Positions 2,775-24,219 of a stretch of DNA of 24,219 nt are shown piece by piece. The stretch is from a virus. A model generated the notes under the pieces. It saw nothing but the letters and a program-made list of their open reading frames with translations, had not been told where the DNA came from and made no database searches. Position numbers and translations under genes: made by a program. Every line of letters begins with the position of its first letter. The first letter of the stretch is position 1. The stretch lies in the IMG/VR virus record IMGVR_UViG_3300043464_000606, positions 1-24,219 of that record; one strand, 5' to 3'.

Positions 2775-4382
2775 TCAACGAAACCACGGGGCCTCTGCCA
2801 CTTCCACGACTTCGCCGACATCCTCTACCGTCATCATGGTCGCAATGGCGAGACTGTCCACATAGTCATCGTGGGCGTCCCTGCTGTCGTCTGGAGCCTG
2901 AATGAGCATGTAGTTGCCCTTCATGACCTTCTCGGCGTCCTCCATCTGCTGCCGAAATCGCTTCCAGACACGAGTCCTGCGGGCCTTGGAATGCCCCGGG
3001 TACAGCAGCAGGTTCCTCTGCAGCAGCTGAATCAGGTGCTTCCAGCGATCCGCCTGATTCTTGAGGTCTGACGTGACGGGAACGACCTCAACCTGATGTC
3101 CAATCAGGCGGTCAAGTCGTTGAGCAACGGCATCACCCATGCCCTGAGCGTCGACTCCAACTCTGGCGATGTTGTAGTTGGAGAGAAAGTCCACGATCTG
3201 GAAGTACTGCTCTTCCCAGTCCGTGTGGGTGATCTCCAGCCAGTTCAGGATGCGGTGTTCGTAGTACCCCGCCGGGTCTGGATGATCCCAATCTACCCAG
3301 CACACCGTGACCACCGTCGAGTCCTTGACTCGTGCCACGTCGATTCCCGCCACACATGGCGTGCGGTGCCATGACTTGACTATCTCCATGGACTTGTCCG
3401 CTAGATAGTCAAGGTCATCTTCAGTGACCAGCATGCCCCGGTCGAGCATCCACTTGAGTGCGTAGCTGAGCTGGAACTCGTCCGAGTCCTCGCCGAGTCT
3501 CACCTTCTCCTTCTGGATGAACTTGGCGTAGTACGGGTTGTACTTGGAGACAACCTTCCAGTTGTACTCGAAGTGGTAGTTCTTTGCTCCTCGGTTGGTG
3601 GAGCGACGCTTGTTGTGCTGGATGGCCTTGTAGTAGTCACCCTTGTGGAAAGAGGGCGTGCCGATCTTGCAGATCGTCCCAGAGTTCGCAGCCAACATCG
3701 GATGTATCGACTTGCGTACCATCAGGTCGTCAGCCTCCTGCGCCTCGTCAAGGATGATGACGTGGTAGGAGGCGCCTTCGATCTTGGCCTTTGGGTTGGC
3801 GGTCTGACGGCGACAGAATGACCCTGACTTCAGCTTGAGGATCTTCGACCCGTCATCGACCTTCTCGTCAATTTCCGGGTCAGACAGGAACATCTTCGCT
3901 CGGTCGTTCGTGAGCTTGTCACGTACGCGCCCGTAGATGAACTCGCTCTGAGTGTCGGTTGGGGCGAAGAGGCCGACCCACACGCCCCGCTTGAAGCGGT
4001 CGAACATCGGGTACGACAGCGCCAGCTTGGGGAACAGCACTATCACGCCTGCCACGATGATCGCCATCGTCTCTGACTTCCCCGACTGACGCGACCACGT
4101 AGCGGTCAGTTCCTCGCCGTCGGCAAGGAGGATCGACTCGATAAGCCGGTAAGCCATGTCCCGCTGGTACGGGCGCAGCTCCATGTCGGCCAGCTCCTCG
4201 CAGAAGACGATTGTCCTCAGGATGATCTGGTGGATGAACTCCTTGTCGGACTCCGACAGGGCAGCGTAGGCAAGCCCGGTGCCGTCGTCCTCGTCCGGCT
4301 CCAGCGGCTCGGCTTCCTCCTCTAGGGGGTGCTCGAAGAGCATCTCGGGGTTGCCAAGATCTTCGTACAGAGGAGTCGCCAT
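2775..4382 (-). CDS. terL: terminase large subunit (packaging ATPase/nuclease)
   Basis: A complete 535-aa large terminase, the motor that translocates and cuts the phage genome at the portal. The ATPase domain shows Walker A SRQSGKS (residues 97-103), Walker B VIILDEAQ (208-215, Asp212 and Glu213) and coupling motif GTPS (241-244). The C-terminal RNase H-like nuclease shows GIDVA with Asp348, VGVDAQ with Asp411, and a final acidic patch with Asp505/506 and Asp509 (HDDYVDS). All expected active-site residues are present and the length is typical. The first 40 residues are an acidic, probably flexible extension. It lies in a leftward operon, 9 nt after a small cysteine-rich coiled-coil gene, and opposite in direction to the portal and capsid genes, which is unusual. 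Confidence 0.95.
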   Translation of the reverse strand: MATPLYEDLGNPEMLFEHPLEEEAEPLEPDEDDGTGLAYAALSESDKEFIHQIILRTIVFCEELADMELRPYQRDMAYRLIESILLADGEELTATWSRQSGKSETMAIIVAGVIVLFPKLALSYPMFDRFKRGVWVGLFAPTDTQSEFIYGRVRDKLTNDRAKMFLSDPEIDEKVDDGSKILKLKSGSFCRRQTANPKAKIEGASYHVIILDEAQEADDLMVRKSIHPMLAANSGTICKIGTPSFHKGDYYKAIQHNKRRSTNRGAKNYHFEYNWKVVSKYNPYYAKFIQKEKVRLGEDSDEFQLSYALKWMLDRGMLVTEDDLDYLADKSMEIVKSWHRTPCVAGIDVARVKDSTVVTVCWVDWDHPDPAGYYEHRILNWLEITHTDWEEQYFQIVDFLSNYNIARVGVDAQGMGDAVAQRLDRLIGHQVEVVPVTSDLKNQADRWKHLIQLLQRNLLLYPGHSKARRTRVWKRFRQQMEDAEKVMKGNYMLIQAPDDSRDAHDDYVDSLAIATMMTVEDVGEVVEVAEAPWFR

Positions 4383-4391
4383 GGCCTGATC

Positions 4392-4697
4392 CTACTTACG
4401 GTTGTCGTAGTAGTACTTCCGGTAGTAGGCCCGGCCCTGCTCTACGCAGGCCCCTCCACACCCCTGCTGGTAGCGGTAGGTCGAGAAGTACTCGCAGGTC
4501 TCCCCTGACGGCTTGCCGGTGACCACACAGACGCCGGGGGGCGACTCTCCCGATCGCTTCTTGCGCTGCGGCAGGTTGTCGAGCTTGGCTTCGATCTGCG
4601 AGAGCCGGGCTTCGAGCTGATCGAGTGCGGCTTCGAGCTGAGTGATGCGGGCAAAGACCCGCTTGAACCCACCGCTGGCAGCGGCTTCCTCAGTCAT
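4392..4697 (-). CDS. small coiled-coil, cysteine-containing protein upstream of terL (101 aa)
   Basis: I start it at ATG 4697, preceded by GGAG, rather than at the upstream ATG (4748), whose extra 17 residues lie deep within the previous gene. Residues 14-42 form a clear leucine-zipper-like coiled coil (ITQLEAALDQLEARLSQI heptads). The C-terminal half holds Cys57, Cys68, Cys80 and Cys84 among many tyrosines (TYRYQQGCGGAC, YYRKYYY), which could form one zinc site. Small terminases usually sit just before terL and oligomerise by coiled coils, so this is a candidate TerS, but I see no helix-turn-helix and the call stays open. It overlaps the preceding gene by 8 bp. Confidence 0.6.
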   Translation of the reverse strand: MTEEAAASGGFKRVFARITQLEAALDQLEARLSQIEAKLDNLPQRKKRSGESPPGVCVVTGKPSGETCEYFSTYRYQQGCGGACVEQGRAYYRKYYYDNRK

Positions 4698-5058
4698 CGG
4701 AGGACTTCTCCAGCCAGTCGAGACCGCCCCGCACCACCTCGGCGCCATGGGTCGGGGTGTACAGGTAGGCGGTGAAGCTCACGGAGTCACGTCGGGTCAG
4801 CTCGAACTTCGAGTTCTCGGCCAGCGCTGCCACGATCTGCAGCGTGTTGAGGTGGAAGAAGAGCACCGCAGCGGCGTCTGCCTCGGTGGGGTAGGTGTCG
4901 GCACCTTCCATCACGTCTCGGTTGCCGATCGTGATGTAGGGGCGGAACTGGTACTGGCTGGCCTCCCCGAAAGGAAGCTCCAGCTGCGTGTATTGAAGGG
5001 TGTTGGTGTCGCTCATGCCCCACATCTTACTAAAGGCATTTAGGAAATGCAAGCTCAT
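4690..5058 (-). CDS. hypothetical protein (122 aa)
   Basis: ATG 5058-5056 makes an ATGA overlap with the stop of the preceding gene, which favours this start. An internal ATG at 5016 (MSDTNTLQ) is the alternative and looks more like a natural N-terminus. The protein reads as a mixed alpha/beta fold with strands such as YQFRPYITIGNRDV and DSVSFTAYLYT and a helix EADAAAVLFFHLNTLQIVAAL. No known family recognised. A 6-bp inverted repeat with a 3-nt loop (5036-5050) lies just inside the longer start and might matter for start choice. Member of the terminase operon. Confidence 0.6.
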   Translation of the reverse strand: MSLHFLNAFSKMWGMSDTNTLQYTQLELPFGEASQYQFRPYITIGNRDVMEGADTYPTEADAAAVLFFHLNTLQIVAALAENSKFELTRRDSVSFTAYLYTPTHGAEVVRGGLDWLEKSSDD

Positions 5059-5282
5059 TCGGCCCGAGCCTGCATCTCCTCGGTCCCCAGCAGAGCCTGC
5101 TGCAAGTACAGGTGTACCTCGTGCAGATGCTCAGGGGCCTTGGAAGGCGGAGCGTGCCGCAGGGCGTCGTAGTGGATCTGGGCGTTCATCAGCGACGTCT
5201 CCACCACGTCCATCAGCTCACTGGAGGAGAACTTGACGAACTTGGTAGGGGCGAGCGGAGCCTTCTGCCTACGCCGCCTCAT
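5055..5282 (-). CDS. hypothetical protein (75 aa)
   Basis: I place the start at ATG 5282-5280 because it overlaps the previous stop as ATGA; a longer version from 5312 would add ten residues inside the upstream gene. The product begins with a basic MRRRRQK tail, then a helical body with many Leu, His and Glu residues (HLHEVHLYLQQALLGTEEM). Its basic N-terminus could touch nucleic acid, but nothing specific is seen. Its neighbours on both sides are coupled to it. Function unknown. Confidence 0.55.
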   Translation of the reverse strand: MRRRRQKAPLAPTKFVKFSSSELMDVVETSLMNAQIHYDALRHAPPSKAPEHLHEVHLYLQQALLGTEEMQARAE

Positions 5283-5629
5283 GGGGCGGATCGAGGAGCC
5301 GGGGGACGCCACTTGCCGATCTCCTCAGGAGGGGTCTCACCAAGAGCCTCTGAGTTACCGAGGACATCCGCATGGGACTTTGCGCCAGACCGCTCAGCAA
5401 TACCGATGTGAAATGCTGACTCTCTACCCATTCGGAACCTGTAACCACGCCCAAGGCGGTACGGCTCGGTCTCTTCCAAGAACCAGAACGGGATGGCCCA
5501 GCGGTTGTTCTTCTCGATCTCGTCCTCCAGCCCGAAGTACAGCCACTTACGCCATAGGGGGATGAAGTGGATGGACCACACTGCATGCAGGACCCAGAAC
5601 TTGACAGTGAGCCACCACTCGGTCTTCAT
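5279..5629 (-). CDS. hypothetical aromatic-rich protein (116 aa)
   Basis: ATG 5629 overlaps the stop of the KTSC gene as ATGA. The first 35 residues are strikingly Trp/Phe/Leu-rich (WWLTVKFWVLHAVW, PLWRKWLYFGLED) and might lie at or in a membrane, though charged residues interrupt any clean transmembrane helix. The middle (RLGRGYRFRMGRESAFHIGI) is strand-like, and the C-terminus is Pro/Gly-rich and probably disordered. No family recognised. Part of the leftward terminase operon, with overlaps at both ends. Confidence 0.6.
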   Translation of the reverse strand: MKTEWWLTVKFWVLHAVWSIHFIPLWRKWLYFGLEDEIEKNNRWAIPFWFLEETEPYRLGRGYRFRMGRESAFHIGIAERSGAKSHADVLGNSEALGETPPEEIGKWRPPAPRSAP

Positions 5630-5949
5630 GGCCGGGACTGCACTTCCTTGCGGTTCGGATTCGATGGGGCCTGCACCTGATCCGGGGTCGCAGGCGTGTA
5701 AGGCAGGCCGTTGAGCACCCGGTTGACCATCTTGCCCTTCGATGAGGCACGAGCGAACCGTCGGTACAGCTCGGAGTCAGCCGCTCCGTACACCGTGACG
5801 ACGTGCCCTCGGCCGTTCTTCCAGACGACCTGCAGCTCGCGAGTCCCATAGTCGTAGCGGTAGCGGGTGAGGCGGCTCGACTGCGGCGACTCGATCCACG
5901 GCCCGAGGTCGTGGACTGGATCATCGGCCTCTTGGTACGGCGAGGGCAT
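5626..5949 (-). CDS. KTSC-domain protein (107 aa)
   Basis: Residues about 24-79 match the pattern of the KTSC domain: SSRLTRYRYDYGTRELQVVW, then a short hairpin, VVTVYGAADSELYRRF, and ASSKGKMVNRVL, where the K-G-x-x-x-N-R block is the hallmark. KTSC domains (named after a lysyl-tRNA synthetase C-terminal segment) occur alone in many phages and bacteria, with a proposed nucleic-acid-binding role and no firmly known function. The tail after residue 80 is Pro/Asn-rich and likely disordered. Start and stop both overlap neighbours (TGATG upstream, ATGA downstream), so expression is tied to the terminase operon. Confidence 0.7.
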   Translation of the reverse strand: MPSPYQEADDPVHDLGPWIESPQSSRLTRYRYDYGTRELQVVWKNGRGHVVTVYGAADSELYRRFARASSKGKMVNRVLNGLPYTPATPDQVQAPSNPNRKEVQSRP

Positions 5950-6272
5950 CAGTCGTCCGTCTCGTCAAAGAAGGTCTGGGGGTACTTGTTGGAGACCCGA
6001 GTCAGCACGTCGAGACGGCTTGCGCTGTCAGTGGCCCCTTCGGCCTCGCACTGATCCTCGGCCTCTCTCAGCAGGTTCTGGGTGCGGAGGAAGCTCTCCA
6101 GCAGCGGGGTCAGGTTCTCCGCCGTGCCGAGCGAGACGAACGTCTGCCCGTGATCTGGGTCCAGCACCCCGAGCAGGATCACGAAGTCCAGCGTGTCGGT
6201 AGGAGACATGCCGACGATGAGACTTGTCTGCCCTGCGATGTAGAGGGGTGTCGTATCCAGCTCGTCATTCAT
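5949..6272 (-). CDS. hypothetical acidic protein (107 aa)
   Basis: An acidic protein (many Asp/Glu, few basic residues). A hydrophobic strand-rich first half (PLYIAGQTSLIVGM, TLDFVILLGVLD) is followed by helices (ENLTPLLESFLRTQNLLREAEDQCEAEG). It overlaps the preceding gene by 8 bp and the following KTSC gene by one base (TGATG). No domain recognised. The composition fits a small soluble phage protein. Confidence 0.6.
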   Translation of the reverse strand: MNDELDTTPLYIAGQTSLIVGMSPTDTLDFVILLGVLDPDHGQTFVSLGTAENLTPLLESFLRTQNLLREAEDQCEAEGATDSASRLDVLTRVSNKYPQTFFDETDD

Positions 6273-6462
6273 TCTCTTCTGCCCTCATCGCTTCTGCAGC
6301 GGCAACTGCTGCGTCCATGGCCACTTGCTGTCGGAACAGGTCGGCGGCAGCCATCGCCCCTACGTGCAGAGCGTTGGGGTAGCCACCTGCCCAAGAGCCT
6401 AAAGCCCCTATCGCAACGGCGCCAGCGATGTCCAGACTCTGGAGGTCGTCGTAGGTAGACAT
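6265..6462 (-). CDS. hypothetical Ala-rich protein, first gene of terminase operon (65 aa)
   Basis: The frame is open from 6546, but the first 28 codons lie across the promoter, so I start at ATG 6462, preceded by a GGAAGGA ribosome binding sequence (about 12 nt upstream). The protein is Ala-rich and helical (AGAVAIGALGSWAGGY, MDAAVAAAEAMRAEENE), with a weakly hydrophobic N-terminal half. This stretch (residues 12-30) is too short and Gly-rich to call a membrane helix with confidence. It heads the leftward operon driven by the promoter at 6494-6523. Function unknown. Confidence 0.6.
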   Translation of the reverse strand: MSTYDDLQSLDIAGAVAIGALGSWAGGYPNALHVGAMAAADLFRQQVAMDAAVAAAEAMRAEENE

Positions 6463-6493
6463 TGGTATCGGAATCCTTCCTGTGTGCTGGCTT

Positions 6494-6523
6494 TCAAGAT
6501 ACCAAATGTGGTTTACAACATTC
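6494..6523 (-). promoter_or_regulatory. leftward promoter for the terminase operon
   Basis: On the minus strand TTGAAT (6523-6518) and TATCTT (6499-6494) are 18 nt apart in an AT-rich stretch between divergent genes. The transcript would begin near 6487 and carry a short leader with a GGAAGGA site before the ATG at 6462. This should drive all nine genes down to 2112. Confidence 0.5.
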
Positions 6524-6537
6524 AAGGGGAAATATCT

Positions 6538-6567
6538 CCTTGACACGCTGGCGACACCTTTGGTACC
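6538..6567 (+). promoter_or_regulatory. rightward sigma70-type promoter
   Basis: Perfect TTGACA (6538-6543), an 18-nt spacer, then TACCTT (6562-6567). The transcript should begin near 6574, and AGAGGAG (6588-6594) supplies the ribosome binding site for ATG 6605. It is the strongest-looking promoter in the window and is back to back with the leftward terminase promoter. Confidence 0.6.
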
Positions 6568-6604
6568 TTGTACTCATCGTTCGACACACAGAGGAGCACG
6601 ACAC

Positions 6605-6889
6605 ATGGCAAAGGTTCTGAACGAGTTCGACTTCAGGTCGGGCCGGGCTGGAGGGCACGAGAAGTACCCGTGGGCAGAATGGTTCGATGGGCGGATCTGG
6701 AAGCTCAGCCCCGAGGGCTGGGACTCCAAGGAGGAGCCGGGTGACTTCGTCGGCTCGCCCGAAGACTTCCGGACCACCTGCTACTCGGCCGCCAAGCGGC
6801 GTGGGGTCAAGATCAAGACCTCCGTCAACACCGTCGAGAACTACCTCGTGATCCAGAAGGTGGCTGACTTGACCCCGGTCGAGTCCTGA
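6605..6889 (+). CDS. small conserved-looking hypothetical protein (94 aa)
   Basis: Start at ATG 6605, ten nt after AGAGGAG; upstream codons of the same frame lie in the promoter. The protein has an N-terminal strand and loop (VLNEFDFRSG), a YPWAEWFDGRIWKL block, then SPEDFRTTCYSAAKRRGVKIKTSV and a terminal strand NYLVIQKVA. This order (WxxWxDG, then an AAKRRG helix, then VKIKT) resembles small proteins I associate with actinobacterial phages and prophages, possibly nucleic-acid-binding, but I cannot name a family. It stands alone between a very strong promoter and a hairpin cluster, so it may be made at high level as its own transcript. Confidence 0.7.
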   Translation: MAKVLNEFDFRSGRAGGHEKYPWAEWFDGRIWKLSPEGWDSKEEPGDFVGSPEDFRTTCYSAAKRRGVKIKTSVNTVENYLVIQKVADLTPVES

Positions 6890-6891
6890 GA

Positions 6892-6940
6892 TCTGACCGG
6901 AGTGCAAACCCCTCCCTCTCCTTGCCGCACTCCGGTCAGA
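6892..6940 (+). terminator. perfect 14-bp hairpin with 21-nt pyrimidine-rich loop after the 94-aa gene
   Basis: TCTGACCGGAGTGC (6892-6905) and its exact reverse complement (6927-6940) flank a 21-nt loop that contains CCCCTCCCTCTCC. It starts 3 nt after the stop codon. There is no U-tract after it, so it is not a classic intrinsic terminator. It could stabilise the 3' end of the mRNA, help termination, or be a regulatory RNA hairpin. Confidence 0.5.
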
Positions 6941-6953
6941 CAGCATGAGGATG

Positions 6954-6991
6954 GACACTTTCTAGCCTGCCCCCACAGCTAGTTGAGTGTC
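6954..6991. other. second intergenic hairpin (interrupted stem)
   Basis: GACACT (6954-6959) pairs with AGTGTC (6986-6991) and CTAGC (6962-6966) pairs with GCTAG (6978-6982). A small internal bulge and an 11-nt C-rich loop complete the structure. It lies between the first hairpin and the intrinsic terminator, in a stretch with no convincing open frame. Confidence 0.4.
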
Positions 6992-7005
6992 TCCTCGGCC
7001 AGAGA

Positions 7006-7040
7006 AGGCCCACTCCGTTTCGGAGTGGGCCTCTTTGCGT
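7006..7040 (+). terminator. Rho-independent terminator
   Basis: AGGCCCACTCCG (7006-7017), loop TTT, and CGGAGTGGGCCT (7021-7032) form a perfect GC-rich 12-bp stem followed by CTCTTTGCGTCTT. This is the best intrinsic terminator in the window and should end the transcript of the 94-aa gene before the membrane-protein genes. Confidence 0.7.
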
Positions 7041-7075
7041 CTTGGGGTCAGCTACTATTGTGCAAGATCTTCTCG

Positions 7076-7444
7076 ATGATCAACTGCTACTGGAGCCACC
7101 CGTTGCTCTCATTGACATATTACCTGTCTGATACCAACGCAGCGGGCCTCTGGTGGTCAGCGGTAACTTCCTCACTTGCGGCAGTACTGTCTCTTGCGGG
7201 AGCATGTCACGGATTATCTCGTCACAGGTTTGCACGGACGGTTCTAGGCGTATCGGTGGCCGCAGCTGCCTTGAGCTATTGGGTCGACATCCTAGGTGAG
7301 TACGGATTGGGGGCAGAACTGCGGCGTGGAGCCAGCTACGTTCTCTGGCCGTCGTTGCTGTGGGTGGCATGGACTGGCATCTCCTACATGCGGGCAAGAG
7401 AGGCCATGGTTCAGCAGATTCTTGAAGGGGTGCGGGATGAATGA
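7076..7444 (+). CDS. three-helix membrane protein, holin-like candidate (122 aa)
   Basis: I start at ATG 7076; the longer open frame runs back through the terminator and is unlikely. A -10-like TACTAT (7053-7058) lies upstream, giving an almost leaderless message. Three hydrophobic helices are visible: residues about 22-46, 53-73 and 85-104, joined by short loops (SRHRFAR, GEYGLGAELRRG), with a charged tail of about 18 residues. Together with the next gene, also a membrane protein and overlapped by 8 bp, it resembles the tandem small membrane proteins in actinophage lysis modules. However, no endolysin lies in the window, so a holin role is only inferred. Confidence 0.6.
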   Translation: MINCYWSHPLLSLTYYLSDTNAAGLWWSAVTSSLAAVLSLAGACHGLSRHRFARTVLGVSVAAAALSYWVDILGEYGLGAELRRGASYVLWPSLLWVAWTGISYMRAREAMVQQILEGVRDE

Positions 7445-13928: not shown

Positions 13929-15308
13929 ATGGCATTCCAGATCCCCAACGGGTCCGGCATCACCGGTACCGGCCGGGTCACATCCGGCACCGCCGGTTCG
14001 GCCTACGGCGCGATGCAGCCGACCGGCAGCCCGGTCGGCAACAACATCACTGGCGGCTACGGCTCCAGCGCCACCACCGGCTCCACGATGCTCTCCCCGG
14101 CCATCCAGACCGTCTGGTCGAAGGAGATCCTGTTCCAAGCGATGCCCGTGCTGCGCTTCGAGCAGTTCGCAGTGAAGAAGACCGAGCTGGGCGTCATGCC
14201 CGGCCTCACGGTCAACTTCATGCGCTACAACAACCTCCCCATCCCCTCCGGGGCGCTGGTTGAGGGCATCCGCATGAAGACCCACGGCATCTCGGCCCAG
14301 CAGTACCGCATCACGGTCGCTGAGCAGGGCTTCGCTGTGGCGCTCTCGGAGCTGCTCCTCAACGCTTCGTTCGATGACGTGATGGCCTCGGCCTCCCGCC
14401 TCCTCGGGCGCAACATGGCCCTGTACATGGACGAGCAGGCCCGTTCGACGCTGCAGTCGGCCTCCTCGATCGTGAACGGCTACACCCAGCCGTCGGACCT
14501 CACCGTCGGTCGAGGCATCTACAACAACGGAGCGCAGGCGCAGACCCTCGCCGAGCTGAAGAACAACGAGGCCCGGTACACCCTGACCCCTGCTGCGATC
14601 AAGGATGCCGTGCTCGAACTGAGCACCAAGAACATCCCGCGGCTGGGCGAGACCTACGTGTGCTTCATCCACCCGGCGCAGAGCCGCCAGCTCCGGGACA
14701 CCCCGGAGTTCATCGAGGTCACGAAGTACGCCGCTCCCGGCAACTTCATGCTCGGTGAGATCGGCCGCCTCTACGACGTGGTGTTCATCGAGACCACTCA
14801 GGTTGGCACCATCGCCGACGCTGGTGGCGTGATTCAGCGCTACGACAACGGTCAGGCTCTCGACTGGCGTACCCCTGCCCAGCAGGGTCTGGAGACCGGC
14901 AAGGCCGCCGAGGACGGCTCCGCCGGTACGGCAACTCCCGTCACCGATCCGTTCGAGACGCCCGGTGCTTCCGGGACGCCCGGTCAGGCGACCGAGGGGT
15001 CGACGGCTGAGCCGCAGGCCACTCCGGGCACCAAGCAGGTTCCCGGGTGGGATGAGCAGTGGCCCTCTACCTATGGGCAGTCGCGACTCGACACCAACCT
15101 CGGTGGCAACGATCTCGGCGACGAGGACGTGTACGAGGCGCTCATGCTCGGCGACAACTCGTTCGGCCACGCCATCTCGCTGCCGGTCGAGCTGCGTGAC
15201 GGTGGCGTTCTGGACTTCGGTCGTGAGCACGCTCTGGCGTGGTACTCGATCTGGGGCTTCGGTCTGGTGACCGACTCCGCCGTGGTCAAGATCCGCACCA
15301 ACGTCTGA
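13929..15308 (+). CDS. major capsid protein, N4-gp56 family (459 aa)
   Basis: The shell protein. The N-terminal 50 residues are Gly/Ser/Thr-rich. The body follows the N4-gp56 pattern: IQTVWSKEILFQAMPVLRFEQFA (59-81), VNFMRYNNLP (95-104), LVEGI (110-114), VAEQGFAVALSELL (130-143) and LGRNMALYMDEQARSTL (159-175). It continues with ETYVCFIHPAQSRQLRDTPEF (241-261), NFMLGEIGRLYDVVFIET (272-289) and a C-terminal strand set (SLPVELRDGG, HALAWYSIWGFGLVTD, VVKIRTNV). An unusual Ala/Thr/Gly/Pro/Glu-rich insert (about 319-372) interrupts the domain. Ribosome binding site CGGAGGAC lies before ATG 13929. Codon use is strongly biased to C/G third positions, as expected for the most abundant protein. Confidence 0.88.
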   Translation: MAFQIPNGSGITGTGRVTSGTAGSAYGAMQPTGSPVGNNITGGYGSSATTGSTMLSPAIQTVWSKEILFQAMPVLRFEQFAVKKTELGVMPGLTVNFMRYNNLPIPSGALVEGIRMKTHGISAQQYRITVAEQGFAVALSELLLNASFDDVMASASRLLGRNMALYMDEQARSTLQSASSIVNGYTQPSDLTVGRGIYNNGAQAQTLAELKNNEARYTLTPAAIKDAVLELSTKNIPRLGETYVCFIHPAQSRQLRDTPEFIEVTKYAAPGNFMLGEIGRLYDVVFIETTQVGTIADAGGVIQRYDNGQALDWRTPAQQGLETGKAAEDGSAGTATPVTDPFETPGASGTPGQATEGSTAEPQATPGTKQVPGWDEQWPSTYGQSRLDTNLGGNDLGDEDVYEALMLGDNSFGHAISLPVELRDGGVLDFGREHALAWYSIWGFGLVTDSAVVKIRTNV

Positions 15309-16907: not shown

Positions 16908-18494
16908 ATGGCCCATCGTGCCGGGTTTCGTATCCCGAACGCCAGCAGCGACCAGATCGTCAACTTCCGTCAAGCGGAGCCAGATGCCGGGGACTTCTCG
17001 ATTCTCGGCAACGACCGCTACGGCGTCTTCTACGGCTGTGGCGTGTCGACCTCAGGTACGGGCGGTTTCACCGTCTCTCTGGAAGCAGGCCCTCACATCA
17101 TCCTTGTGGACGGGGTAGTCCAGCAGATTCCGTCCTCAGCGTCGGTGTCCTTGAGCACTGGGGCCACGACTGACCGGTTCGACCTTGTCGGGTGGGACGC
17201 TCAGGCCAATGCTCTGGCGGCGATCTCCGGCATTCCGGTCGATGACCCCACGTTCCCGGACATCCCGAACTCGTTCGTGGTGTTTGCCGCTGTGCTGGTG
17301 CCTGCGGGAGCGTCGAACATCACGCCGTACAACCTTACGGACAAGCGCAGGATGCTGCTCCACGGGGCACGGGGCGCTGCTGCGGCTGGCGACACCTTCC
17401 TCCGTAACCTCCTGCCGGACGGGGGAGTCGGCTTCCAAGCGACGGGTAGTGGCGCCATTTCGTGGGCCAACTCTGCTGTCACGCTGCAGTATGACGGGAC
17501 CGACCTCGTTATCAGCGGCAAGAAGCTCGCTGCCAACAACGGGCTGTCGGTCACCGGATCTGTCACGGTCCAAGGGGCTGTCACGGCCACGGGGGACTTC
17601 GCTGCGGACAACTTCAAGCGGGGGGCAGGCAACCCGACTGGGCTAGGGGTCACCGGAAAGTACGGGGACGAGTTCTCCAACACCTTGACAGGCCAGAAGT
17701 ACATCTGGCGGGGGCCTTCTGTTGGTTGGGCCGAGATCTACGCCGATGAGTACCCGCCCGGGACGGTCATCGCCTCGCTGCTGACCGGAGCTGACGCTGC
17801 TACCCACATGGTGGGGTGGCTCCCCCTCACCGGTCAGACGTACCCAGAGAGCGCTGTCGGTCGGCTCACTGACTTGGCGGCGCCATTCTCTTCGTGGGAC
17901 AACAACAACGGAACGTGGACGTTGCCGAACCTGCAGGGCCGCACGCTGCTCGGGGGGACACCGGGAGCCTTGGCAGGGTCCAACTCCGTAGTGCTGACAG
18001 CGGCCAACCTGCCCGCCCACCGGCACTTCAACAACGTCGGGGCGACCGCCACTGCGGGAGAGCACAGCCATTCTGGGTCTGCCAACAGCGCCGGGCAGCA
18101 CAGTCACAACGTCACCGCCGGGCAGCACAGCCATCCGGTAACCGACCCCGGCCACGCTCACCGGGGCCAGCACGGACTCAACGTGCCGACCAACTTCATC
18201 GTCACGATGTGGAACGGGGAGAGCACCCTTGACGGGATCGTGACCGATTCCAGCCACACATGGCGAGTCGGGGCGATGCCGTTCACGACCATCGACAAGA
18301 CCGACATCACCATTCCCAGTAGCGGTGCTCACACCCACGCCGTGACCCTGACCGGGTCCCACACCCACACTGTGAGTATCTCCTCTGCAGGCGGTCATAC
18401 GCACAGTCTCCCGCCAGAGTCTGCTGTGGGAGAATCACGTTCTGTGAACACCACCCCGTCCCACTTGGCCGTCACGTACTACGTGAAGATCTGA
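16908..18494 (+). CDS. tail fibre with phage tail collar domain and His-x-His repeats (528 aa)
   Basis: Residues 1-160 form an attachment-type domain (FRQAEPDAGDFSILGNDRYGV, DRFDLVGWDAQ). Residues 160-250 read as a beta-repeat shaft (NGLSVTGSVTVQGAVTATGDF). The C-terminal part begins PPGTVIASLLTGADAATHMVGWLPLTGQTY (from 283) and DNNNGTWTLPNLQGRTLLG (331-349), the phage tail collar domain. It is followed by eight His-x-His motifs (HRH 371, HSH 386, 398 and 407, HAH 416, three HTH near the end) and a final TPSHLAVTYYVKI. In T4 gp12-like short fibres such motifs hold metal ions along the trimer axis, so metal-stabilised trimerisation and receptor binding are expected here. It is preceded by a short gap with GAGGA. 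Confidence 0.85.
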   Translation: MAHRAGFRIPNASSDQIVNFRQAEPDAGDFSILGNDRYGVFYGCGVSTSGTGGFTVSLEAGPHIILVDGVVQQIPSSASVSLSTGATTDRFDLVGWDAQANALAAISGIPVDDPTFPDIPNSFVVFAAVLVPAGASNITPYNLTDKRRMLLHGARGAAAAGDTFLRNLLPDGGVGFQATGSGAISWANSAVTLQYDGTDLVISGKKLAANNGLSVTGSVTVQGAVTATGDFAADNFKRGAGNPTGLGVTGKYGDEFSNTLTGQKYIWRGPSVGWAEIYADEYPPGTVIASLLTGADAATHMVGWLPLTGQTYPESAVGRLTDLAAPFSSWDNNNGTWTLPNLQGRTLLGGTPGALAGSNSVVLTAANLPAHRHFNNVGATATAGEHSHSGSANSAGQHSHNVTAGQHSHPVTDPGHAHRGQHGLNVPTNFIVTMWNGESTLDGIVTDSSHTWRVGAMPFTTIDKTDITIPSSGAHTHAVTLTGSHTHTVSISSAGGHTHSLPPESAVGESRSVNTTPSHLAVTYYVKI

Positions 18495-18959: not shown

Positions 18960-19460
18960 ATGCCCTTCCCTACAGCAAGCAGCCTCTACGCAGCGAACCT
19001 TCTCGCCGCATGGGGAGCGTCGGCAACCGACATCGACCTCGACAGTACGACCCCGACGAACCGTATCAAGGTCGCCTTGTACAACGACTCCATGAATCAG
19101 GACCCGCTCGGTACCACTCCCCTCGGGTACAGCACCACTGGCGAACTCTTGCCCACCGGCGGCTCGAACTACACCACGGGCGGGAACCCCGTCGGCACAG
19201 TGACGTGGGCGGTCAACGGCGGCCTGCTGGTCTGCTCGGCAGCCTCGACCGTGTCGTGGGCGAGCGCCCAGTTCTCCAACGTCTACGGCTGTGTGGTCTA
19301 CGACGACGGGGCCACCTCCCCGGTCGCTGACGCCTGTATCGTGGCGGTGAGGTTCGGCACCGTCGGCTCGTCGGGTGGCGGTACGTTCACGATCGACTGG
19401 GCTGATCTGACCACGCCTGCGGTCAACAACGTGATCTTCACCATCGACCCGCAGCCGTGA
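18960..19460 (+). CDS. putative virion structural protein (166 aa)
   Basis: ATG 18960 follows AAGGAG. N-terminus PTASSLYAANLLAAWGASATDIDLD and the family-like RIKVALYNDSMNQDP are followed by Thr/Ser/Gly-rich beta segments (VTWAVNGGLLVCSAASTVSWASA, GGGTFTIDWADLTTPAVNNVIFTI). This resembles small beta-rich virion proteins encoded near the fibres of actinophages, but I do not name a family. Codons are strongly C/G-ending, as in the capsid and the 540-aa gene. Confidence 0.6.
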   Translation: MPFPTASSLYAANLLAAWGASATDIDLDSTTPTNRIKVALYNDSMNQDPLGTTPLGYSTTGELLPTGGSNYTTGGNPVGTVTWAVNGGLLVCSAASTVSWASAQFSNVYGCVVYDDGATSPVADACIVAVRFGTVGSSGGGTFTIDWADLTTPAVNNVIFTIDPQP

Positions 19461-19468
19461 GGTGACCC

Positions 19469-19912
19469 GTGGCTGACAATGTCGGTTACACGCCCGGCTC
19501 TGGTGAGAAGGTCGCCACCCGTGAGGTGTCCTACTCCGGCGAGACCGCTCAGGCGCAGGCTGTCGGCCTCGTCACGTTCAGTGGCGCAGACGATGCCAAG
19601 ACCGCAACGGACATCAGCGACGCCAACCCGTTGCAGGTGTCGGAGATCGGCACGCCGCACTCGCTCATGTCCCGGCTGCTGATGTTGTTGCAGTCCCCAC
19701 CGGGCTTCGACTCGCTTCTGCGCCGCCAGCGCTCCACGGCAGTGATCGAGTCAGGGACCATCACGACGGTATCGACCGTGTCGTCCATCAGCGGCGGCAC
19801 GATCACGACGGTCACCGGCCTCACGAACATCGACGGCCGCAACGGCTCCATGCTCATCAACGCCACGAACATGAGCGCATGGGCCGACTGCCACCGCGCT
19901 CGCATCACCTGA
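19469..19912 (+). CDS. putative virion protein with Thr/Ser beta-repeat segment (147 aa)
   Basis: Start GTG 19469, shortly after the previous stop, with GAGGTGA before it. The N-terminal half is hydrophilic (EKVATREVSYSGETAQAQAVG). A helix LMSRLLMLLQSPPGFDSLLRRQRS and a regular beta segment SGTITTVSTVSSISGGTITTVTGLTNI (about 95-121) follow. The latter contains the duplicated GTITTV unit that looks like fibre-shaft or beta-helix structure. Ends MLINATNMSAWADCHRARIT. Likely structural; no family recognised. Confidence 0.6.
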   Translation: MADNVGYTPGSGEKVATREVSYSGETAQAQAVGLVTFSGADDAKTATDISDANPLQVSEIGTPHSLMSRLLMLLQSPPGFDSLLRRQRSTAVIESGTITTVSTVSSISGGTITTVTGLTNIDGRNGSMLINATNMSAWADCHRARIT

Positions 19913-19925
19913 AAGGCCCAGCCTC

Positions 19926-21548
19926 ATGGCAAACACGTTCAAGAAGGTCATCGACCGTCAGATGTGGGCGCAGACGACGCCGAACATCGGCGCTCATGCG
20001 GCGGGGGCGAGTATGGCGTCAGACCTCCGCAACAACGCGACGCGCAACCCGTTCGTCTACTTCCTCGGTAACAACACGACCCTGCGGCGATTCAACATCG
20101 TGCAGAAGTCGTGGCAGAACCTCGCCAGTCCTGCGCTGGGCGGCACCTTCGGTGCAGGGTCCACGTCGTGGTTCGCTCCGAGCTTCGGCGCGGTCGGCAC
20201 GATCGCCGCGGGGGCCACCACTACATCGGTGGTCATCTCGACGGCGCTCCCGTCGGCGGTCGGTGTGAACATGCTCGCCAACCGGGGCGGGTCAGGTGAC
20301 CTCGGCTACCGCCTGCGGATCATCGACACCACGGCCGGCAAGACCGAAGAACGGTCGATCGTCGCCAACACCAGCGGCACAGCCCCGGTGATCACGGTCG
20401 ACGCAGCGTTCACGTTCACCCCAGCCTCGGGTGCCCGTTACGAACTGCTGTCGGGCCGCTTGTTCATGTTGGGGGCCAGCACGCTCGCTGCCTCGACCTT
20501 CCGCTCTTTCGAGGTGGCGACGAACACCTACGCTGATCGCAGCAACACGAACCTCGCGGCGTCGATCACGACGGACTCCGCAGCGACGGTGCTGGACGAG
20601 CAGTACGTTCCCCACAACCACGCCCCCGGTGAGGGCATGGTCAAGGGCAGCTTCACCTACGACACCGGCCTGAACTCGCTCACCGCCACCGCATCGGCAG
20701 CGAGCACGCTCACCGGGCAGGCGAGCGGCGGTGACGCCGTCATCGCTGCGAACGAGTACCGCAACTTCCAGATCCGCATCGTGGCCGACTCGACCACACC
20801 CGCCTCGGTCGGTCAGCGGCGAGTCATCCTGCACCACACCGCCGGGGCGTCGCCGGTCTACACGCTCGGCGCGGCCTGGACGACCCAGCCGAGTGCCACC
20901 GCCAAGTACGTCATTGAGCTGCCGAACCTCGTTCTGCTCCGCACGACGGCGAACACCGCCACCTACGTCTACAACTTCTCTGACGCCTCCTACACCGGCA
21001 ATGTGACCATCGCCGCCAACGCTTGGAACGCAACTTGGATCGCCGCTGCCCCCGGCAACCACGGCGCAGGCAACGTGTGGGCACCGTCGTGGGGCATCCA
21101 GCCCGACACGCCCCGCAACGCACGCCACGCCTTCTGCTTCAACTTCCGCGGCGCGACGACCACGCTCGACCTGCTCGACCTCTCCGGCGGCACCGGCTCC
21201 CCGACCGCAGGCGCACCGCCGCTGTGGACCGGCGCTGTCACCTACGACGGCGGCTTGGACAACATCGCCACCGGCTCCACCGCAGCGCACTCGCCGTTCG
21301 GCAATGAGGGGCGCTACACCTACATGAACATCTACGTCGCGTCGCAGGTGTCGCAGATCTACCGGTTCGACGCAGCGAATCGGGTGCTCTCCCCGCACGT
21401 CGCCACGGACTTCATTCAGAGCGGCTCCGCAGCGGTCGGCCAGAGGATGGCAGCGTATGCCGCGATCGACGGGAGCGACCTGTACGACGTTGTCCTGTTG
21501 CAGTCGCACCTGTCGCAGTTGACCCAAGAACTCATCCCCCTCGTCTGA
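19926..21548 (+). CDS. large putative virion structural protein (540 aa)
   Basis: Start ATG 19926. A long beta-rich protein made of Thr/Ala/Gly/Ser strands with recurring pieces such as NLASPALGGTFGAGS, GSGDLGYRLRIIDTTAGKTEERSI, YRNFQIRIVADSTTPASVGQRRVI and HTAGASPVYTLGAAW. The two segments RLRIIDTTAGKTEERSIVANTSGTAPVITV and IRIVADSTTPASVGQRRVILHHTAGASPVYTL look like repeats of one domain. The C-terminal third (RYTYMNIYVASQVSQIYRFDAANRVLSPHV) is less repetitive. Probably a fibre, collar or capsid appendage. No enzyme motif seen. Codon use is highly GC-biased, consistent with abundant virion protein. Confidence 0.65.
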   Translation: MANTFKKVIDRQMWAQTTPNIGAHAAGASMASDLRNNATRNPFVYFLGNNTTLRRFNIVQKSWQNLASPALGGTFGAGSTSWFAPSFGAVGTIAAGATTTSVVISTALPSAVGVNMLANRGGSGDLGYRLRIIDTTAGKTEERSIVANTSGTAPVITVDAAFTFTPASGARYELLSGRLFMLGASTLAASTFRSFEVATNTYADRSNTNLAASITTDSAATVLDEQYVPHNHAPGEGMVKGSFTYDTGLNSLTATASAASTLTGQASGGDAVIAANEYRNFQIRIVADSTTPASVGQRRVILHHTAGASPVYTLGAAWTTQPSATAKYVIELPNLVLLRTTANTATYVYNFSDASYTGNVTIAANAWNATWIAAAPGNHGAGNVWAPSWGIQPDTPRNARHAFCFNFRGATTTLDLLDLSGGTGSPTAGAPPLWTGAVTYDGGLDNIATGSTAAHSPFGNEGRYTYMNIYVASQVSQIYRFDAANRVLSPHVATDFIQSGSAAVGQRMAAYAAIDGSDLYDVVLLQSHLSQLTQELIPLV

Positions 21549-21731: not shown

Positions 21732-24219
21732 ATGCTCCTGACGCTGCTCGCCCCTCAGAGCGGCTCCGGTAGTCCGGGGACGGTCGCCCCTGCTGCCGTA
21801 CAGGCTTCGGTCAGCATCCCCGCACCGTCGTGGGGCGAGTATGCGGACATCGTGCAGCCGCCGATCTTGCAGGAGACCGGGGCTGACGACGCCACCTACA
21901 ATTCTGCTGCGTTCACGTCAACGCAGACGTGGCAGTGGACGGGTACGTCAACCAACTCCAGCACCGGCGCTTGGACCGGCTTCCGGTTCAAGATTCCGGC
22001 GTCCATCGACCGCACGACGATCACGGACGTGCGCCTCGTGCTCACGACGTTGGATGGTGCTGGGGGCACCGCTACCACGGCCATCCGTGTGGAGCAGGGG
22101 CCAGCAGCGCAACTCTCCAGCTCTGGTGCCCGTCGTCCTGACACTCTGTGGGCATCCATCGGTGCTGGTTCGGGGGACACGGCTCAGGTGGCGTGGACCC
22201 ACGTTGGCGCCGCCGCTGACGCCACCAACACCTCCCCGAACATCTCCGCTGCGGTGGTGGCGGCGCTGGCGTCCATCAACCAGAGCACCGAGTACCTGAA
22301 CGTGATGATCGGGCCTACCGGCTCGTCCACTTCTCGCTACCGCACGTTCTCACACGACGACTCCACCCCGGCCCGCAGGCCGCAGCTACTGGTCACCGCT
22401 CGGCAGCTCGTCAATCCCACTCCGACTGTGGCTCCAGTCAACGCCGCCACGTCGATCCCGACCCCGACATCCACGCCTCCGATCAGCATTGCCTACACGA
22501 ACGGCACTGCGCTCACGTTCAAGGATCTCCCCAACTCTGCGCCGGGCGGTCGAAATCTCTCGCTCTGGCTCCCGAACGGTACTGCGCCGGAGACCGGTTG
22601 GCCGCTGTTCATGTGGATTCATGGCGGCTTCTTCTCCCAAGGCAGCCGCAGCGAAATCCCATCGTCCCTTGTCAACCAGCTGCTGGACCGAGGTATCGCT
22701 GTCGTCTCGGTCGACTACCGCTTGACCGAAGCCATTGCTGGGGGAGCGTTCGCAGAGGCGACGTTGTCGAACGGCAACGAGGCGTCGTTCCCGCTCGGCA
22801 TTCACGATGTGAAGGTTGCGCTGCGCTTCTTCCGCAGGGACAAGCTTGAGTCCAACCTCTACAACATCGACACCGACAACACGATCATCTCGGGCCACTC
22901 TGCGGGCACCTCGATCGCCCAGTTCGTGGCCTTCACCAAGGGCGACACGACGACGTACTCCGGCATATACCCCGGCTCATGGCCAGCTGGGGACATCTTC
23001 AACCCGAACCGGCACCAGCGTCCAGCGCATGTCGGCAGAAGCAACGGTGCCCCGAACACGTCGTACCCATTCGACTTTGGCCAGAACGGTGACACGATCA
23101 CCGCTTCCGGCAACTCACTGACGCTCAACAACAGCTACACGATCAAGGGCATGTTCCTCTTTGCCCCCGTCGTATCGCCCCAGAACGCTGTCAACCCGAC
23201 GCTCACGCCCAACGGTTCCAACCGGATCGTCATCAGCCTCGGACGCAGGTATCTGGTCTCTCGGTCTGGTCACGCTATCTCCGAGGCTTCTATCGACACC
23301 ACCGTCTACGGCGAGCTTGATGTCGACAAGTACATCAACCCCGCATCAGGCTCGCCAACGATCAACGAGCCATACCGTGGCAAGGCGGCTGTCGTCCCTG
23401 ACTTCCCGATCGGCATCGTGTTCGGCACAGCGGACGACCTGACGACCAAGGCCGCACACTACGACCAGCTGGTCACGGCCTTGACGAACGTCGGGTACGT
23501 CACCGGGCCACCGACACCGGGCGTCATCTCTTCTGAGAAGCTCACCTACTTCGAGTTGGCTGGCGTCGATCACGAAGGGGCAAAGACTAACGCCACCGGC
23601 ATCGCCAACTTCTTCAGCTGGCTCGATGCGTTCTCAGATGTCATCATCTCGCCGGAGTCGGTCGCAGCCACCAGTAGCATCCCAGCACCTACGTGGGGAT
23701 CTGGAACCCTACCTACTGCAGTCGCAGCAGTTACGGCCATCCTTCAGCCCCTGATCAATTCTGGGACACTGCCTACGGCGGTTGCAGCAGTTAGTGCTAT
23801 ACCAGCACCCGGGTGGGGACAGCAGGCTGTCCCGAGTTCCGTTACCGCAGTTACTACCATTTCTGCTCCTGCAGTCAGCTCTGGAGCAACTGCATCTGTT
23901 TCTGTAGTTGCCTCAATTAGCACTATTCCAGCACCCGGGTGGGGCGCCGGACCACTGCCTACTGCAGTTGCGGCCACCAGCAGCATCACGGCACCTACGT
24001 GGGGTTCTGGGACAGTTCCCGCTGCAGTTGCAGCAATTGCTGCCATCCCCTCTCCCACGACCAGCTCCGGGGCAACTGCGCCTGCTTCTGTGGTCGCTGC
24101 AGTTACTGCTATCCCAGCGTCACTGTGGGGAGCTGGACTAGCGCCCGCTGTCGTTACGGCCACGGCTGCGATTCCTGCGCCGGGAGTTTCTGCAGGAATC
24201 TCACTCACTCCTTCGGTAG
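21732..24219 (+). CDS. multidomain virion-associated alpha/beta-hydrolase (esterase) with IPAPxWG repeats; partial at right edge
   Basis: An ATG at 21732, 6 nt after the previous stop, opens a frame of at least 829 codons that runs off the window. Order: a short Ala/Val/Pro repeat (VAPAAVQASVSIPAPSWGEY, residues about 17-36); a beta-rich carbohydrate-binding-like domain (about 40-225); a Pro/Thr linker; then an alpha/beta-hydrolase (about 255-630). The hydrolase has oxyanion-hole HGG (297-299), VDYRL, nucleophile elbow GHSAG (Ser390), and candidate Asp568 (TADDL) and His614 (VDHEG) in the correct order for a catalytic triad. From about residue 640 it ends in Ala/Val/Thr/Pro repeats of 18-22 aa. 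Such esterases in phage appendages remove acyl groups from capsular or cell-wall polymers. No other gene reads this region; the overlapping minus-strand frames are shadows. Confidence 0.8.
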   Translation, partial: MLLTLLAPQSGSGSPGTVAPAAVQASVSIPAPSWGEYADIVQPPILQETGADDATYNSAAFTSTQTWQWTGTSTNSSTGAWTGFRFKIPASIDRTTITDVRLVLTTLDGAGGTATTAIRVEQGPAAQLSSSGARRPDTLWASIGAGSGDTAQVAWTHVGAAADATNTSPNISAAVVAALASINQSTEYLNVMIGPTGSSTSRYRTFSHDDSTPARRPQLLVTARQLVNPTPTVAPVNAATSIPTPTSTPPISIAYTNGTALTFKDLPNSAPGGRNLSLWLPNGTAPETGWPLFMWIHGGFFSQGSRSEIPSSLVNQLLDRGIAVVSVDYRLTEAIAGGAFAEATLSNGNEASFPLGIHDVKVALRFFRRDKLESNLYNIDTDNTIISGHSAGTSIAQFVAFTKGDTTTYSGIYPGSWPAGDIFNPNRHQRPAHVGRSNGAPNTSYPFDFGQNGDTITASGNSLTLNNSYTIKGMFLFAPVVSPQNAVNPTLTPNGSNRIVISLGRRYLVSRSGHAISEASIDTTVYGELDVDKYINPASGSPTINEPYRGKAAVVPDFPIGIVFGTADDLTTKAAHYDQLVTALTNVGYVTGPPTPGVISSEKLTYFELAGVDHEGAKTNATGIANFFSWLDAFSDVIISPESVAATSSIPAPTWGSGTLPTAVAAVTAILQPLINSGTLPTAVAAVSAIPAPGWGQQAVPSSVTAVTTISAPAVSSGATASVSVVASISTIPAPGWGAGPLPTAVAATSSITAPTWGSGTVPAAVAAIAAIPSPTTSSGATAPASVVAAVTAIPASLWGAGLAPAVVTATAAIPAPGVSAGISLTPSV
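23649..24219 (+). repeat. array of degenerate IPAPxWG protein repeats (about 60 bp units)
   Basis: About nine and a half units of 18-22 codons. Two unit types are mixed: one ends IPAPxWG (for example SSIPAPTWG, SAIPAPGWG, STIPAPGWG), the other ends in Ser/Gly without Trp (ISAPAVSSG, IPSPTTSSG). The core reads PTAVAAVTAIPAP. The DNA is degenerate, so selection acts on the protein. A single related unit lies at the protein's N-terminus (21777-21839). It continues past the right edge. Confidence 0.75.

Follow-up and report, generated by a model that had tools for sequence, protein, structure and literature searches.

A BD-FAE-type hydrolase between repeat arms in a candidate tail protein of a contractile-tailed phage

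The IMG/VR virus record IMGVR_UViG_3300043464_000606, analysed here in its entirety (24,219 b, hereafter the window), ends in a single open frame that starts at position 21732 and reaches the right edge after 829 amino acids (aa) without a stop. The encoded protein carries a putative esterase between copies of a repeat of about 22 aa. The rest of the gene, expected beyond the edge, was found in a second IMG/VR record, IMGVR_UViG_3300044612_000742 (L002; 38,066 b), which overlaps the window over 6348 b at 99.87% identity and holds the complete esterase gene at 3861-7211, encoding 1116 aa. The two records may originate from related samples. In the complete protein, a repeat unit is followed by a front domain (N-domain), a degenerate unit, a BD-FAE-type alpha/beta-hydrolase, 21 repeat units and a 36-aa tail. 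The features within the window are as follows.

21732..24219, plus strand: gene of the repeat-armed esterase, of whose 1116 aa the first 829 lie here and the rest at 6348-7211 of L002 (open frame and L002 copy)
21780..21839, plus strand: N-terminal repeat unit, aa 17-36 (9.7 bits, profile from other loci)
21849..22406, plus strand: N-domain, aa 40-225 (no Pfam, PDB-sequence at E <= 0.1, or phage match; strands in a low-confidence model by DSSP)
22416..22475, plus strand: degenerate repeat unit, aa 229-248, which separates the N-domain from the hydrolase (motif fit; profile 1.8 bits)
22497..23651, plus strand: BD-FAE-type alpha/beta-hydrolase domain, aa 256-640, bounds approximate (Pfam, PHROG and fold matches)
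22620..22628, plus strand: HGG oxyanion motif, aa 297-299 (invariant in alignment A4, five sequences)
22899..22901, plus strand: predicted nucleophile Ser390 in GHSAG (invariant in A4)
23433..23435, plus strand: predicted catalytic acid Asp568 in GTAD (invariant in A4; profile of seven relatives, E 0.015)
23571..23573, plus strand: probable catalytic His614 in GVDH (placed by eye, from its position and motif, against L190, L191 and L174; unaligned by the profile)
23649..24219, plus strand: start of the C-terminal repeat array, which in L002 extends up to aa 1080 (the whole protein has 21 of its units)

The repeat unit follows the pattern PxxVxAxAx[IV]PxP. Manual division of the C-terminal array (aa 640-1080) gave 21 units, of which one has 23 aa and all others have 20 or 22 aa. 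A repeat profile built without the window protein, drawing on 368 units at 49 further loci, finds 12 sites of at least 3 bits in the full protein, one of them at aa 18-33, and gives a positive score, of whatever size, to 12 of the 21 units of the array; the shuffle control gave 0 of 200 for the whole protein and 0 of 200 for the array. An earlier reading made from the sequence alone had placed a repeat at both ends, and the 9.7-bit N-terminal unit together with the C-terminal array (0 of 400 shuffles) confirms it. The repeat that it had named 'IPAPxWG' is likewise real, being a local flavour of the 22-aa unit, and a third, degenerate unit is now added at aa 229-248, where the profile score is no better than a stray 1.7-bit match inside the N-domain. 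At the DNA level, a GT-T-CC-CC motif occurs 16 times in L002, always in frame inside the esterase gene and never elsewhere.

The same repeat was sought in other loci. A DNA pattern of two units 22 aa apart hit 98 stretches in IMG/VR, whereas a control pattern with equal fixed bases at an out-of-frame spacing hit one; a stricter DNA pattern hit 63 stretches in GTDB species genomes. A filter demanding three in-register spacings kept 47 viral loci (80 of 98 stretches listed) and seven of the 63 genome loci. Many of the stretches that failed it were proline-rich or chance matches, and L001 and L003-L006 were excluded at this step. Five of the genome loci belong to four species of Nonomuraea, and the others to Frankia and Mycolicibacterium. 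Together with L002, these loci give 55 repeat proteins, or 49 distinct ones as judged by shared 12-mers, the redundant cases being the pairs L011/L031, L013/L049, L024/L146 and L041/L125 and the trio L048/L120/L144. Alignment A1 took 55 of 56 frames, dropping the second frame of L052, and alignment A6 kept 13 of the 16 A5 rows, dropping L024, L041 and L144. When hydrolase and repeat were searched separately, as had been proposed, the hydrolase fell into the BD-FAE family and no Pfam repeat family matched the repeat in the 55 proteins; the nearest Pfam family is DUF7742, through a sub-threshold match in L002. The array has no relative in 50,697 phage records at E <= 10, a search in which the low-complexity filter may mask it.

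Alternating hydrophobic positions in the unit suggest a beta strand ending in a P-x-P turn. A flexible, unstructured linker of low-complexity Pro/Ala sequence, with a pattern shared by convergence, is the rival that survives best, and is nevertheless unlikely. Low-complexity composition speaks for it, as does the low-confidence model of the array (predicted local distance difference test, pLDDT, 46.5), on which no claim here rests. Linkers of that sort sit poorly with the spacing: neighbouring units in the 49 distinct proteins lie 22 aa apart in 168 of 211 pairs, 24 aa in 38, 20 aa in three and odd distances in two, figures biased towards even spacings, as the filter counted only these and the scans required the 22-aa spacing. 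Composition points the same way. Profile units are biased at positions 6, 8, 12, 13 and 15, which the search motif fixes, and counts were therefore made on 46 middle units that the motif had not picked. Among these, Pro occupies position 3 in 36, V/I/L position 6 in 39, Ala position 10 in 29 and V/I/L position 12 in 43; positions 13 and 15 each have Pro in 32. The single hit of the out-of-frame control, against 98, also argues against convergence. No Pfam or PHROG match to a pectate-lyase-like (beta-helix tailspike) domain was found, and such a fold in the array is still compatible with the data.

Other tail repeats were seen in passing. Short Trp-rich repeats, RxWxxGxP, occur in the C-terminal tails of L043, L041, L061, L023 and L059 and are perhaps an attachment signal. 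The minor tail protein gp11 of Streptomyces phage Galactica (L214, 2783-6094) ends in an array of a different, A-x-TAHP-like repeat; this array, perhaps an analogous arm, comes after a domain that has a relative in L041, where the 22-aa repeat flanks it. In the stretches examined of BRock, LuckySocke, Ponzi, Galactica and Keanu, which are parts of those records, no array of the 22-aa repeat was found.

The enzyme at the centre of the protein is a BD-FAE-type hydrolase by score, motifs and fold, with its histidine unproven. It matches Pfam BD-FAE (PF20434) at 58.1 bits, the cut-off being 26.8 (E 1.2e-15, aa 279-406), over profile positions 4-113 (110 of 215) and thus over the N-terminal half only, and the PHROG annotation 'esterase' at 7.2e-9. 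Pfam matches at E <= 5 include no SGNH/GDSL family; the hydrolase type is BD-FAE/COesterase. A PDB sequence search listed 44 sequences, headed by the fungal-type lipase 1thg (1.6e-8); among them 6xyc and 6tkx, both carbohydrate esterases, score about 2e-5. As the sequence-only reading had it, HGG, GHSAG, Asp and His come in that order, the motifs starting at aa 297 (HGG), 388 (GHSAG), 565 (GTAD) and 611 (GVDH); its description of a complete-looking core holds for all but the histidine, which is placed by position.

A long insertion separates Ser390 from Asp568. Alignments of the hydrolase's C-terminal half proved unreliable, and an alignment (A4) and a C-terminal profile were therefore taken in its place. 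A4 joins the window protein to four relatives, namely three phage proteins (L187 and L190 being nearly the same) and one secreted-type esterase on a viral contig, with L184-L186 and L188 excluded. Although these relatives are only 23-31% identical over A4, H297-G299, G388, S390, A391, G392 and D568 are invariant. The C-terminal profile of seven relatives (aa 400-640) places Asp568 at E 0.015, which beats all 100 shuffles (best 0.67), yet falls short of the HMMER inclusion threshold. His614 stands at the expected place by eye and is unaligned in both A4 and the profile. An alignment with relatives thus secures part of the triad. The HGG motif and Ser390 as the nucleophile are firmly predicted, Asp568 is supported as the catalytic acid, and His614 is, from its position, the probable catalytic histidine. 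A further alignment, A2, used three of 11 bacterial matches.

A five-row AlphaFold2 model of the protein is poor (pLDDT 38.3). Foldseek matched it to 514 PDB chains at E <= 0.001, first among them 6tkx (4.4e-8), and VIA-align superposed it on 3bxp_B with a Z of 15.1 over 229 residues at 3.7 A, the aligned rows spanning model residues 196-645 and barely covering the fold of the N-domain. The matches of this low-confidence model are carbohydrate esterases and carboxylesterases, in agreement with a predicted alpha/beta-hydrolase fold. Such a fold might also be retained without catalysis, as a glycan- or receptor-binding module on a fibre. The unsecured His614 and the poorly aligned C-terminal half with its long insertion leave room for this, but HGG, Ser390 and Asp568 are kept in relatives of such low identity and the histidine follows where expected, so that loss of activity seems improbable.

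The window belongs to a tailed phage. Compared with BRock and LuckySocke, identities are 45-47% for TerL, 54-55% for the portal and 44-46% for the tube, and over the longest segments 64-68% for the capsid and 31-35% for the sheath; the baseplate protein has a 31% match to BRock. These homologues make the phage a contractile-tailed relative of the Streptomyces phages BRock and LuckySocke, and its host is probably an actinomycete of soil. The esterase gene sits between the capsid gene and homologues of BRock gp143/gp142, upstream of the sheath gene, with a collagen-like fibre gene downstream and a collar fibre gene upstream:

16908..18494, plus strand: neighbouring tail collar/fibre gene (PHROG tail collar protein, 1.8e-9)

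The setting proposed from sequence, a structural protein behind a fibre cluster, is upheld: the gene is one of the late structural genes clustered in this tailed phage, with the collar fibre upstream. LuckySocke gp84, annotated as a tailspike, offers a parallel in a phage of the same group, its gene also lying between capsid and sheath; it differs in following the gp82/gp83 pair, whereas the esterase gene precedes the corresponding genes, and no esterase or repeat was seen in it.

Three side observations concern the same region. The major capsid protein (13929-15308) has about 90 aa more than the LuckySocke and BRock capsids, at about aa 315-405 of the frame. Positions 18960-19460 resemble, very weakly, the N-terminal lectin domain of Bc2l-C in Pfam (E 0.039, below the cut-off). 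Five of the eight differences between the window and L002 cluster in 58 bases (19642-19699), and the protein of 19469-19912 is identical in both.

A link between the repeat and phage tails comes from other proteins of the set. In L024 (= L146), L093 and L080, an N-terminal domain is followed by repeats (about aa 220-360) and then by a Dit C-terminal domain (aa 515-644), scored by Pfam against a cut-off of 25 at 25.7 bits in L024/L146 and, below it, at 24.5 in L093 and 21.6 in L080. Residues 381-622 of L024 are about 30% identical to minor tail proteins in 23 Streptomyces phage records. Among the 55 proteins, PHROG matches comprise Dit (phrog_33 in five, phrog_202 in one), minor tail proteins (phrog_5577 in five, phrog_106 in three, phrog_5360 in one) and one head-tail adaptor. 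That the repeats form a modular scaffold into which domains are inserted, as first suggested from sequence, agrees with the stretches of at least 150 aa that separate two units in 12 of the 55 proteins (11 of the 49 distinct ones). Pfam enzyme domains are present in three of the 55, each lying between units. Besides the window protein itself, with its BD-FAE domain, these are L038 (8716-11364), with DMFA2_C (2.1e-75) and a tape-measure gene nearby, and L096 (2691-5396), with an apiosidase-like glycosidase domain (6.6e-29) and Collagen_bind_2 (1.7e-6) and with portal, protease and capsid genes nearby.

The esterase could instead be a soluble enzyme, released at lysis or exported and merely encoded in the late region. 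Pfam finds no tail-anchoring domain in the window protein, and non-virion phage esterases are annotated, for example in mycobacteriophages. Set against this are the joining of the repeat to Dit-like domains, its presence in minor-tail-type proteins and the position of the gene within the head-tail block, and a soluble role is accordingly given little weight. Misassembly, which had been named beforehand as grounds for refutation and would have joined a bacterial esterase gene to a phage gene, finds a source in the BD-FAE esterases of 13 of 14 control bacterial genomes but is scarcely credible, since L002 carries the same fusion with eight nucleotide differences in 6348 b, all at 19285-21433 and none in the esterase gene, so that the fusion is no accident of one assembly, and two repeat units precede the esterase in one frame.

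The N-domain resists classification. Suspected by eye to be a CBM96/DNRLRE domain, it gained no support from Pfam, PDB-sequence or hhalign tests: Pfam shows no CBM96 anywhere in the record at E <= 10, and hhalign against five CBM96 domains returns a probability of 0.1%. The 'carbohydrate-binding-like' front of the sequence-only reading is not borne out by these results, and the label is unproven. The N-domain has no convincing Pfam relative, none among PDB sequences at E <= 0.1, none among phages (E <= 1) and none in viral contigs except the same phage, by a search sensitive to close relatives only; in ten further genomes or records, the G007 copy alone matched, the others giving E 0.138 or worse. 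DSSP assigns strands to it in the poor model.

Related esterases exist in phages. The whole protein has no close relative among the 50,697 phage records (E <= 1e-5); the esterase alone matches 38 of them, with a best E of 2e-5 and none reaching 80% query cover. Two other phage groups, one of L190 with L184-L187 and one of L191, encode related esterases near tail genes and without the repeat. L190 (4011-5921; BD-FAE 1e-16) and L191 (3984-5888; BD-FAE 4.5e-16) represent the closest phage esterases found, at 35-40% identity over 131-139 aa. Their neighbours were examined: L191 is surrounded by genes for Dit, a collar fibre, a tail protein and an endolysin, and for a weakly matching tape-measure protein, and L190 lies between a collagen-like fibre gene and, several genes further, TerL. 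Both types resemble the window protein as BD-FAE esterases beside tail genes, but their front domain is another one, unrelated by eye, and they have no repeats. L188 and L189 are secreted-type esterases on viral contigs. With the BD-FAE carbohydrate esterases (PF20434; 6tkx, 6xyc) the window enzyme shares a score over the cut-off, the HGG and GxSxG motifs and the fold; it differs in lying inside a phage repeat protein and in the long insertion between Ser390 and Asp568.

Carbohydrate esterases remove acyl groups and leave the glycan backbone uncut. The term depolymerase, used in the sequence-only reading for a new architecture, is therefore too strong, as an esterase of the BD-FAE family would remove acyl groups rather than cut the backbone. 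Tail esterases as a kind are not new either. SGNH-type esterase fibres and tailspikes, such as G7C gp63.1 and those of Klebsiella and Acinetobacter prophages, are known or predicted to deacetylate glycans, according to the parts of the sources consulted (PMC13123978, PMC12115436), and an esterase fold is reported, again in the part consulted, in a receptor-binding protein of a Gram-positive phage (PMC9863714). The window protein would work like the SGNH fibres, as a receptor-binding protein deacetylating surface glycans, but its HGG/GHSAG alpha/beta-hydrolase belongs to another enzyme family than the SGNH fold, and repeat arms of this type are not described for SGNH fibres in those portions of the texts (PMC13123978, PMC12115436). 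The Gram-positive phage protein (PMC9863714) shares with it an esterase in a receptor-binding protein; the part of the text consulted gives neither a fold class nor repeats. What is new, and what stands of the claim, is the BD-FAE enzyme class on a 22-aa repeat scaffold. No description of the 22-aa repeat or of a BD-FAE tail esterase was found in the literature, a search that left subscription journals mostly uncovered and hence absence from print unsettled.

Taken together, the gene probably encodes a virion tail-appendage esterase of a contractile-tailed actinomycete phage, removing acyl groups from host glycans and carried on a swappable repeat tether, a reading held with moderate confidence and for which we infer activity, substrate, virion location, arm fold and cargo exchange. 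The array would form an extended arm, rich in beta structure, that keeps the hydrolase at a distance from the particle. At the cell surface, during adsorption, the serine hydrolase would strip ester-linked groups, most likely acetyl, from host glycans, which would expose or alter the receptor, and the N-domain may aid binding. Recombination between repeat units would let phages swap cargo, the array serving as both tether and exchange site. This reading draws on the BD-FAE score, the A4 invariants, the fold matches, the head-tail gene context and the upstream collar fibre, as well as on the Dit and minor-tail matches, the order of domain, repeats and Dit, the insertions between units and the L190/L191 esterases near tail genes. 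Several points weigh against it. The structure model is poor, His614 is assigned by position, and the carbohydrate-binding tests of the N-domain came out negative. The window protein itself yielded neither a Dit domain nor any other tail domain of a known type, its virion location and activity are predictions, and the exact insertion point of the gene is unlike that of the LuckySocke tailspike gene. Cargo exchange by recombination is a proposal.

A wider reading of the repeat is plausible, if somewhat short of an even chance. The 22-aa repeat could serve the tails of actinomycete phages in general as a plug-in shaft, fixed at the tail tip in Dit fusions and bearing exchangeable cargo (esterase, glycosidase-like or lectin-like), of which the window protein would be the BD-FAE virion-esterase case, with glycan switching through recombination of units. 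If true, the repeat would be a search handle that groups tail proteins whose diverse enzyme- or binding-type domains would keep them apart in enzyme-centred searches, and the exchange of tail cargo through repeat-unit recombination would become testable. Virion enzymes are more familiar from phages of Klebsiella and Acinetobacter than against actinomycete surfaces, and the finding would point to virion enzymes that act on the latter.

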